Assembly: GCA_029265355.1 (NCBI GenBank)
Contig: JAJUJL010000006.1
Coordinates: forward strand, 124,001 to 188,000
From: Chloroflexota bacterium
GTDB taxonomy: Bacteria; Chloroflexota; Anaerolineae; Anaerolineales; UBA4823
Length of the DNA stretch: 64,000 nt
Direction: 5' to 3'
The position numbers and the translations under genes are program-made. Within the stretch, counting starts at the first letter, position 1, and the number at the start of each line of letters is the position of its first letter. The notes under the pieces are model-generated. The model searched no databases and was not told the DNA's origin. It saw nothing but the letters and a program-made list of their open reading frames with translations. Below are positions 35,113-38,339 of this stretch, one piece after another.

Positions 35113-35183
35113 GATGATTGAATTGCGGCAAGAATTTCCGCGAGCACTCAAGAAAACTATTCGTCAAAGTCGAGGAGAGCGAG

Positions 35184-37247
35184 ATGAGAAGCATCGCAAA
35201 AAAAGTTATGCTCTTGATCCTGGCTGCGGTCTTCCTGGGAGGCTGCAGCCTGTTCATCAAGACGCCCTCGGAGCAGCCGGCCTCGGCGCCCGAGTCGGCC
35301 CAATCTCCGGGGTTGTATGATGAAGAAGTCGCCCTGGCAGCGTTCAGCAAGGGAGGCTGCGCGGCATGCCATGTGATCCCGGGTGTGCCGGGTGCGGTGG
35401 GCACGCTGGGACCAAGCCTGGCGGGTATCGGTAAAACTGGCGCTGCCAACATTCAACTGGCAGACTATTCGGGCAGCGCAAAAACGCTCGAAGACTATCT
35501 CCGCGAAGGCATCCTGGATCCAGACGCTTATATTTCCAAGGCTTGCGGCGGAGCACCCTGCCAGGCGGGGCTGATGCCCAAGACATTCCGGGACACCTAC
35601 AGCGATGAAGAGATAGCCGCCATGGTGGGTTTCCTGGCGAAATTGCAGGATGAAAGCGCCGTGGCAGAAGCCGCGCCAGCCGGCGAAGCAGCGACTACTG
35701 CCGCGCCGGTGCTCAGCGAGCAAGAATTTGCCTGGGCCAAGCAGACTTACTTCGAGCGCTGCGCTGGCTGCCATGGCACGCTGCGCAAAGGCGCCACCGG
35801 CCCGGCGCTGACGCCGGACCTGACCCTGCCCAAGGGAACCCTGGCGCTTTCGGCGATCATCTTCAATGGCACCATGAAGGGCATGCCCGACTGGGGCAAA
35901 CAGGGCTTTTTCACCGAGGCGGAGACTGAAGTGATGGCGAAGTTCATCCAGAACGAGCCGCCGCAGCCCCCCGAGATGTCGCTGGAACAGATGAAGGCCA
36001 CCTGGAAGCTGTTAGTGCCGCCCGAGCAGCGCCCCACCTCGCCGCAGACCAGCCGCGATTGGGAGAACTATTTCGTGGTCACTCTGCGCGACGCCGGGCA
36101 GGTGGCGATCATCGATGGCGACACTTATGAGATCGTCAATACGGTGGATACCGGCTATGCAGTGCATATCTCGCGCATGTCGGCCACCGGGCGTTATGTG
36201 TACACCATTGGGCGGGATGGCAAGCTGGCCATGATCGACCTATGGATGGAGATACCGGAGAAAGTTGCCGAAGCGCAGTTGTGCTACGATGCCCGCTCAG
36301 TAGAAGTCAGCAAATACGTGGGGGCGGAAGGCGATTTTACCGATAAGCTGGCAATTGTCGGCTGCTATTGGCCACCCCATTTTGTCATCCTGGATGGGCA
36401 GACGCTGGAGCCGTTCAAAATTGTCAGCACGCGCAGTTACACTTATGACACCGAGGAATTTCACCCCGAGCCGCGCGTGGCCAGCATCGTGGCCTCGCAT
36501 TACAAACCGGAATGGATTGTCAATGTCAAAGAGACCGGGCAGGTCTGGCTGGTCAACTACGTCGATCCGGTGAACCCTTCAATTAAAATGATCGAGGCTG
36601 AGCGTTTCCTGCACGATGGCGGTTGGGATTCCACGCGGCGTTATTTCCTGGTGGCGGCTAACCAATCCAACAAGATCGCGGTGATCGATGCTCAAGAGGG
36701 TAAGTTAACCGCCCTGGTGGATACGCCAGCCGTGCCACACCCCGGGCGCGGCGCCAACTGGATCGATCCAGAATTTGGACCGGTGTGGAGCACCTCTCAC
36801 CTGGGCGACCCAGCGCTGGTATCGATTGGCACCGATCCCGAGGGACACCCGGACTCAGCCTGGAAGGCGGTGCGGGTGACGCCTTTGCCCGGCGCTGGCA
36901 GCCTGTTCATCAAGACGCATCCCAACAGCAAGTGGGTATGGGTGGACCTGGTGTTGAACTCCGATCCGAAACTCTCTCGCACGGTGTGCGTGATCGAAAA
37001 AGCCAATCCGGCAGAAGTGTACAAGTGTTGGGAAGTGGGCAGTTATGGCCGCGCTGTGCACATGGAGTACAACAAGCAAGGCACTGAGGTGTGGGTCAGC
37101 CTGTGGGGCGCAGCAGATGTTCCGGGAGAAACCGGAGAGATCGTGGTGTATGACGATGCCACGTTGGAAGAGAAGGCGCGCATTCCCAATTTGATCACAC
37201 CCACCGGAAAGTTCAACGTATACAACACGGTGCACGATATTTACTAG
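35184..37247 (+). CDS. nirS: Cytochrome cd1 nitrite reductase (NirS), di-c-heme lipoprotein form
   Basis: 687 residues from ATG 35184 (GAGGAGAGC upstream). It reduces nitrite to NO in denitrification. The N-terminus has a lipobox, VFLGGC, with Cys21 as lipid anchor. Two c-heme sites follow: CAACH at 59-63 and CAGCH at 193-197; most NirS proteins have one. The C-terminal d1 beta-propeller (about 285-687) is typical: GYAVHISRMSATGRYVYTIG with His328 as d1 ligand, FHPEPRV (His427), ASHY (His439), FLHDGG (His477), HPGRGAN and a TPTGKFNVYNT end. I did not assign which His are the two catalytic ones. No d1-heme synthesis genes lie nearby. Confidence 0.93.
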   Translation: MRSIAKKVMLLILAAVFLGGCSLFIKTPSEQPASAPESAQSPGLYDEEVALAAFSKGGCAACHVIPGVPGAVGTLGPSLAGIGKTGAANIQLADYSGSAKTLEDYLREGILDPDAYISKACGGAPCQAGLMPKTFRDTYSDEEIAAMVGFLAKLQDESAVAEAAPAGEAATTAAPVLSEQEFAWAKQTYFERCAGCHGTLRKGATGPALTPDLTLPKGTLALSAIIFNGTMKGMPDWGKQGFFTEAETEVMAKFIQNEPPQPPEMSLEQMKATWKLLVPPEQRPTSPQTSRDWENYFVVTLRDAGQVAIIDGDTYEIVNTVDTGYAVHISRMSATGRYVYTIGRDGKLAMIDLWMEIPEKVAEAQLCYDARSVEVSKYVGAEGDFTDKLAIVGCYWPPHFVILDGQTLEPFKIVSTRSYTYDTEEFHPEPRVASIVASHYKPEWIVNVKETGQVWLVNYVDPVNPSIKMIEAERFLHDGGWDSTRRYFLVAANQSNKIAVIDAQEGKLTALVDTPAVPHPGRGANWIDPEFGPVWSTSHLGDPALVSIGTDPEGHPDSAWKAVRVTPLPGAGSLFIKTHPNSKWVWVDLVLNSDPKLSRTVCVIEKANPAEVYKCWEVGSYGRAVHMEYNKQGTEVWVSLWGAADVPGETGEIVVYDDATLEEKARIPNLITPTGKFNVYNTVHDIY

Positions 37248-37269: not shown

Positions 37270-37318
37270 TGCGGGCTGTTGGCGGAGAGAGCTGGCTAAC
37301 AGCCCGCAGTTTCTTTTA
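37270..37318 (+). terminator. Hairpin terminator of nirS
   Basis: Eleven-bp stem TGCGGGCTGTT/AACAGCCCGCA (37270-37280 with 37298-37308), then GTTTCTTTT. A TATAAT at 37317-37322 directly after it may be the -10 of the next gene. Confidence 0.75.
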
Positions 37319-37355
37319 TAATGCTGAATGCAAGGTATCCTGTCTGAGGATGCAA

Positions 37356-38339
37356 ATGACCATGGAGGAAGCTCTCACGGGTATTCTGATTGCCAATACT
37401 GGTACCCCTGATGCGCCTGAACCAGCGGCGGTGCGGCGCTACCTGGCGCAGTTTCTCTCCGACCGGCGGGTGATCGAATACCCGAGGTGGGTATGGCTGC
37501 CGTTGCTGCACGGTGTAATCTTGCGCACACGCCCGCAGCGTTCGGCGAAGCTGTACCAGCGGGTGTGGGGTGAACATGGCTCCCCGCTGCTGCACTATAC
37601 CCGGCGGCTGGCGCAAGAACTGGCGGACTGGGCGGCGCAACAGGGCAGGGCAAATCTGCAGGTCGAGGTGGGTATGCGCTACGGCAACCCGTCTATCCCA
37701 GCCGCTTTGCAGCGGTTGCGCCAATCGGGTGTGCGAAAGCTGGTAGCGCTGCCGCTCTTCCCGCAATTTTCTGGTTCCACCACCGGCTCGATCTTTGATG
37801 CGATCATTGCAGAGCTCAGCGCCTGGCGCAGCTTGCCTGACCTGCATTTCATCGCCGGCTACCACGACCATCCCGCATACCTGGATGCGATGGCGGACCA
37901 CATCCGCCGCGCCTGGCAAACACGCCAGCCGCCGCGCAAGCTGCTGTTCTCATTTCATGGTATTCCGAAATCCTATGTGGAGCGAGGCGACCCATACCAG
38001 CAGCAATGCCTGTACACGGCTGAGCGGCTGGCAGAGCGCCTGGGCTTAGGCCGTGAGCAATGGCAGGCGTCCTTCCAGTCGCGCTTTGGGCCACAAGAGT
38101 GGCTCAAGCCGTACACCGATGAGACCTTGCATGCCTTGGGGCGCAGCGGCCTGGATGGGCTGGATGTGGTGTGTCCGGGCTTCGCCGTGGACTGCCTGGA
38201 GACGATCGACGAGATTGGACATGAGGGAAGGCGCACCTTCGAGGAGGCGGGCGGTAAGAATTTCTGCTACCTGCCGGCCTTGAACGACAGCCCGGGGCAT
38301 GTCGCGGCGCTTGGCGAAATACTGAAGCCTTATATTTAA
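37356..38339 (+). CDS. hemH: Ferrochelatase
   Basis: 327 residues from ATG 37356 (TGAGGA 5 bp upstream); the frame extends to 37269 but runs through the nirS terminator. It inserts Fe2+ into protoporphyrin (or coproporphyrin) in heme synthesis. Family motifs: ILIANTGTPDAPE (usually LLxNLGTP), YLAQFLSDRRV, FSFHGIPKSYVERGDPYQQQC with the active-site His, and CPGFAVDCLETIDEI with the conserved Glu. It is placed just behind nirS, which needs c-type hemes; the link is inference. Confidence 0.95.
   Translation: MTMEEALTGILIANTGTPDAPEPAAVRRYLAQFLSDRRVIEYPRWVWLPLLHGVILRTRPQRSAKLYQRVWGEHGSPLLHYTRRLAQELADWAAQQGRANLQVEVGMRYGNPSIPAALQRLRQSGVRKLVALPLFPQFSGSTTGSIFDAIIAELSAWRSLPDLHFIAGYHDHPAYLDAMADHIRRAWQTRQPPRKLLFSFHGIPKSYVERGDPYQQQCLYTAERLAERLGLGREQWQASFQSRFGPQEWLKPYTDETLHALGRSGLDGLDVVCPGFAVDCLETIDEIGHEGRRTFEEAGGKNFCYLPALNDSPGHVAALGEILKPYI

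Follow-up and report, generated by a model that had tools for sequence, protein, structure and literature searches.

Cytochrome cd1 nitrite reductases (NirS) with two c-type haem domains ahead of the d1 propeller have already been described in Chloroflexi as C1-C2-NirS by Schwartz et al. 2022 (PMC8756737), and Pold et al. 2024 (PMC10999283) placed them in NirS clade 1g. In the published members nirS is isolated, with no other denitrification genes nearby, and some of them carry cupredoxin-like domains ahead of C1. Schwartz et al. reported no C2-NirS lacking C1 in Chloroflexi (PMC8756737). The solved enzymes of Pseudomonas aeruginosa and Paracoccus (1nir and 1aof), in contrast, contain a single c haem and are accompanied by a full d1 gene cluster. 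The synthesis of haem d1 starts from siroheme and proceeds via NirDLGH, NirJ, NirF/NirC and NirN, a pathway whose function assignment has been described as complete (PMC13168839), and siroheme is itself preceded by precorrin-2, the product of uroporphyrinogen-III methyltransferase (SUMT; PMC7242693).

We analyzed a 64,000-nt stretch of the genome of a Chloroflexota bacterium of the order Anaerolineales (the window; assembly GCA_029265355.1, contig JAJUJL010000006.1, positions 124,001 to 188,000) that encodes a protein of this published type. The di-c-haem architecture is therefore not new and neither is the protein type; the result added here is the absence of the haem d1 genes from this genome and from those of its relatives. 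The domain order and the phylum of the window protein match those of the published C1-C2-NirS, and its nirS gene is likewise isolated. The term lipobox does not occur in PMC8756737, whereas the window protein possesses one, and the ferrochelatase gene next to nirS is a feature of this member relative to the published ones.

The nirS gene (35184..37247, + strand, as for all window features below) encodes a predicted tethered di-c-haem cytochrome cd1 nitrite reductase of 687 aa, based on its open frame, Pfam domains, similarity and a structural model. Its ATG at 35184 is preceded by GAGGAG (35172..35177), which resembles a ribosome-binding site. The lipobox LGGC (residues 18-21, 35235..35246) was read from the sequence in the context FLGGC and ends on Cys21. 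It is followed by the C1 cytochrome c domain (residues 53-154, 35340..35645; PF00034, Cytochrom_C), with its CxxCH haem site at residues 59-63 (C59-H63, 35358-35372) and distal Met131 (35574), and by the C2 domain (residues 186-255, 35739..35948; PF13442, Cytochrome_CBB3), with its CxxCH site at residues 193-197 (C193-H197, 35760-35774) and distal Met234. The d1 propeller occupies residues 292-682 (36057..37229; PF02239, Cytochrom_D1) and scored 437.8 bits, where the cut-off is 25.5. All three domains were found above their Pfam cut-offs, so that the original prediction of CxxCH sites at 59 and 193 ahead of a d1 propeller, one of them an additional c-type haem site, was confirmed, as was the lipobox cysteine.

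The original prediction also named the protein as the reductase rather than a NirF or NirN, and this identity was supported by every comparison. The closest solved structures were NirS of P. aeruginosa (E 4e-189) and of Paracoccus (E ~2e-181), whose C2 and d1 propeller are ~53-55% identical to those of the window protein and share all of the ligands. The matches to NirN (E 2e-37) and NirF (E 1e-8) were far weaker. The AlphaFold model of the window protein (mean pLDDT 84.9) gave a structural match of Z 60 to NirS, relative to 47.5 for NirN and 39.7 for NirF. In the tree, all Chloroflexota NirS, including the window protein, formed a single clade (support 99/96), and the identification as NirF or NirN was rejected by similarity search, phylogeny and structure alike. 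By sequence and model, the window protein is a membrane-tethered cytochrome cd1 nitrite reductase, lipid attachment and nitrite reduction being predicted.

The Chloroflexota clade branches beside Scalindua-type NirS with moderate support (87/85). This nearest group (loci L047, L051 and L067) is 60-65% identical to the window protein; these enzymes have one c haem and, unlike the window genome, their genomes encode NirDLGH and several NirJ-like proteins. Thermus NirS is 56% identical and also has a single c haem, but in Thermus nirS is accompanied by a radical-SAM gene and by the gene of a separate cytochrome, NirM, neither of which lies at the window locus.

The loci that we retrieved by similarity came mostly from Anaerolineales and other Chloroflexota, and nearly all of them presented the two-c-haem layout. 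Because this layout recurs in ~40 Chloroflexota genomes at 66-81% identity, a chance arrangement can be excluded. Among the 35 relatives whose N terminus could be read, a strict lipobox was found in 24, a W-A-C lipobox variant in eight (one of them judged by eye) and a transmembrane segment in three. A membrane anchor is thus predicted to be nearly universal among Chloroflexota NirS. Several loci depart from the common form. Three are tri-haem versions, with a transmembrane segment and one more cytochrome c domain ahead of C1-C2-NirS (L014, L016 and L017), and nine are lipoproteins with a further N-terminal domain of ~120 residues before C1 (L018, L021, L026, L031, L033, L041, L045, L049 and L071), which may be the cupredoxin-like domain that Schwartz et al. 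described. A frameshift, either real or a sequencing error, interrupts nirS between C1 and C2 at two loci (L043:10001-11934 and L046:2030-3968). A search of viral contigs returned no match.

One member of the same class as the window genome (G458, L243:7930-9798) encodes a NirS with a lipobox and only one c haem, in which a Pro-Thr-rich repeat linker takes the place of C1. This sequence is sister to all remaining Chloroflexota NirS, and its basal position fits a fusion of C1 after the acquisition of nirS. As a single sequence, it offers a lead that would contradict the statement of Schwartz et al. on the invariable presence of C1.

We mapped the functional residues onto the P. aeruginosa numbering, taking their roles from PMC7278500 and PMC8756737. 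In all 40 Chloroflexota relatives, we found identical C2 haem ligands (H197 and M234), d1 iron ligand (H328), nitrite-binding pair (H477 and H519), arginines holding the d1 side chains (R302, R344 and R522) and tryptophan lid (W641). In C1, the haem residues C59, C62, H63 and M131 are invariant among relatives, together with an additional cysteine pair, C121/C126. The preservation of every ligand across the relatives indicates that the NirS protein is under selection and is no relic.

Downstream of nirS, we detected a terminator-like hairpin (37270..37318) with a 14-bp stem and a T-rich tail (folding energy -30.5 kcal/mol, z -4.97 relative to shuffled sequences). The next gene, on which the original prediction was silent, encodes a hemH-type ferrochelatase (37350..38339; PF00762, 377.9 bits; TIGR00109 above cut-off). 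The strong hairpin between the two genes disfavours a nirS-hemH operon and hemH is probably a separate transcript; it adjoins nirS in the window only, among the loci compared, and may at most be a candidate for a role in the NirS system. The recurring neighbours of nirS are membrane proteins and a Crp/Fnr-type regulator, the latter near nirS in 17 loci, and no shared neighbourhood of d1 genes was found among the loci compared. We considered the name NnrS for a recurring membrane protein of ~355 residues and dropped it, as Pfam yielded no match. Pairs of membrane proteins of ~135 residues also lie near nirS in four loci (L018:6495-7317, and L026, L031 and L033); these gave weak matches, below cut-off, to the two ends of the cytochrome oxidase subunit I model.

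The absence of d1-haem genes beside nirS, as originally noted, holds at the locus and across the whole genome by profile searches. In the window genome, which is 98.45% complete, the d1-propeller model recovered NirS alone, with no NirF or NirN above cut-off; the NirDLGH model gave a single match of 22.6 bits, below cut-off; and the NirJ model gave nothing near its cut-off. We did find SUMT and a protein with the CysG N-terminal domain, both of the siroheme branch. Of the d1-haem genes sought elsewhere in the genome, the siroheme branch is present, and NirDLGH, NirJ, NirF and NirN are not seen above family cut-offs. The original prediction had counted a genome without any d1-haem synthesis genes against the reductase, and this genome comes close to that state, with its siroheme-branch genes only. 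We do not read the missing genes as evidence against NirS, because the d1 pocket is intact in 40 of 40 relatives.

The same search was conducted on 50 genomes with NirS, of which 38 (among them the window genome) are Chloroflexota and 12 belong to other groups; many are metagenome-assembled and several are incomplete. NirDLGH (at least 49 bits) was detected in none of the 38 Chloroflexota and in 10 of the 12 others, and NirJ (at least 300 bits) showed the same distribution (0/38 vs 10/12); both thresholds were set after the scores were seen, with a large score gap, and since the genomes are also related and non-independent, Fisher p-values are descriptive only. An additional d1 propeller, of the type seen in NirF and NirN, was found in 0/38 Chloroflexota relative to 6/12 others. 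SUMT, the entry step towards haem d1, was found at E 1e-10 in 5 of the 38 Chloroflexota and in all 12 others. These absences were judged with models of known families, which an unrelated pathway would escape. Two Planctomycetota genomes with NirS, at loci L059 (G079) and L063 (G081), also lacked NirDLGH, NirF and NirJ above cut-off. Their position elsewhere in the tree suggests that such an orphan state arose at least twice.

We then extended the search to a second sample of 400 Chloroflexota with a completeness of at least 85%. NirDLGH-type domains were found in 32 genomes, all of which belong to classes other than that of the window genome. Matches to the d1 domain came from 12 genomes, comprising 11 full NirS proteins and a fragment, and no genome appeared in both sets. 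The NirDLGH model gave scores of as much as 122 bits elsewhere in the Chloroflexota, compared to 49-119 bits in the control NirS genomes, which indicates that the model works in this phylum. Single-contig NirS genomes scored as 99% complete were also without NirDLGH, so that missing contigs do not explain its absence. We found no discussion in the literature of this gene absence in Chloroflexota NirS genomes, including the texts of PMC8756737 and PMC10999283; it may have been on record before for clade 1g in the supplementary table of Pold et al., who scored nir accessory genes clade by clade.

Two ferrochelatases are encoded in the window genome, one beside nirS (37350-38339) and one on contig C31 (G000:C31:55030-55938), where it belongs to a coproporphyrin-type haem b cluster with HemQ and a radical-SAM protein of family TIGR04053. 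No ferrochelatase was shown in 23 of the 38 Chloroflexota NirS genomes, a gap that points to haem import in many of these bacteria. Together with the 33 genomes for which no SUMT was shown, this pattern fits tetrapyrrole import. In the isolate Longilinea arvoryzae KOME-1, which has NirS, the searches returned no SUMT, NirDLGH, NirJ, NirF or ferrochelatase. The NirJ-like matches near 100 bits proved to be TIGR04053 proteins and a separate radical-SAM family of ~450 residues, and the TIGR04053 proteins that we examined sit in haem b clusters.

The best overall explanation, and one that we consider fairly probable, is a tethered cd1 nitrite reductase with haem d1 from a non-canonical source. The lipid anchor would keep NirS at the outer face of the cytoplasmic membrane, where C1 would be reduced by a donor in the membrane or periplasm and pass the electrons through C2 to haem d1, at which nitrite would be reduced to NO outside the membrane. 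C1 would stand in for a free donor cytochrome such as NirM, a substitution also proposed by Schwartz et al. (PMC8756737), and the distinct electron route through the extra haem that the original prediction envisaged is plausible. The supply of haem d1 would bypass the canonical pathway (SUMT/NirE, NirDLGH, NirJ, NirF/NirC and NirN). One tentative possibility is that exposed apo-NirS captures haem d1 from outside, presumably after its release by neighbouring cells; the outward orientation of the d1 pocket may render an importer unnecessary. An unrecognised synthesis route is similarly tentative, and we hold capture and synthesis to be about equally likely. Occupation of the pocket by another tetrapyrrole seems unlikely, and the rest of the probability falls to d1 genes that were missed or to a protein without cofactor. 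For the clade as a whole, we lean slightly towards the reading that a conserved group of cd1 reductases receives its haem d1, or an analogue of it, from a source other than host synthesis by the known pathway, whether through surface capture or an unrecognised synthesis route.

Alternatively, haem d1 or a close analogue might be made non-canonically by a radical-SAM enzyme of the TIGR04053 family, as the nirSJM genes of Thermus appear to do. Thermus respires nitrite with nirSJM (PMC7694296, PMC5748679) and its NirJ is a TIGR04053 protein; on plasmid pTHTHE1601 of Thermus thermophilus (L249:11929-15188), nirS is directly followed by the TIGR04053 gene and a cytochrome c. We identified 18 nirS-bearing Thermus plasmids, and no Thermus was named among the plasmid matches to NirF and two NirDLGH proteins. 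Plasmid-linked copies of NirDLGH and NirF are dispensable for nitrite respiration in Thermus, which may by analogy be a partial precedent, within the plasmids searched, for a functional nirS without them. The TIGR04053 protein of the window genome is 48% identical to that of Thermus, and both Planctomycetota NirS genomes without NirDLGH contain such a gene. However, TIGR04053 is common on plasmids of many genera and lies among haem b genes in the window genome. When the NirJ model served as a proxy, only 11 of the 38 Chloroflexota NirS genomes showed a TIGR04053 protein, and none appeared in the isolate Longilinea arvoryzae or in the single-contig genome G064. We view this route as doubtful.

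It is also conceivable, and in our view improbable, that the propeller binds a tetrapyrrole other than haem d1, for instance haem b or siroheme, in a different redox role. This would account for the missing d1 genes in a genome that has haem b and siroheme-branch genes, and Schwartz et al. left a different function for Chloroflexi NirS possible (PMC8756737). The ligands of the d1 side chains, the iron and nitrite that we checked are, however, the same in all 40 relatives, a constancy that would be difficult to account for had the cofactor and substrate changed, and siroheme cannot be the general cofactor when 33 of the 38 genomes show no SUMT.

That canonical d1 genes are present and were missed, through assembly gaps or excessive divergence from the models, is very unlikely. 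Several of the genomes are indeed incomplete, but the completeness of the window genome and of the single-contig genomes, the performance of the NirDLGH model elsewhere in the phylum and the joint absence of four gene families refute this reading in substance. Least credible is a NirS relic that no longer works, as the missing cofactor genes and the lack of NO reductase in many such genomes (PMC8756737) might suggest, since conservation refutes it in substance: the frame is intact in nearly all of ~40 genomes, the ligands are invariant and the extra haem domain has been kept.

Our results bear on how nirS is interpreted, as this gene is used as a marker of denitrifiers in environmental surveys. 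Because the assignment of haem d1 synthesis has been described as complete, a clade with an intact d1 pocket and without those genes constitutes a direct exception. If the known pathway to haem d1 is closed to the Chloroflexota hosts of NirS, counts of denitrifiers may be wrong or, alternatively, a second way to obtain haem d1 would exist.
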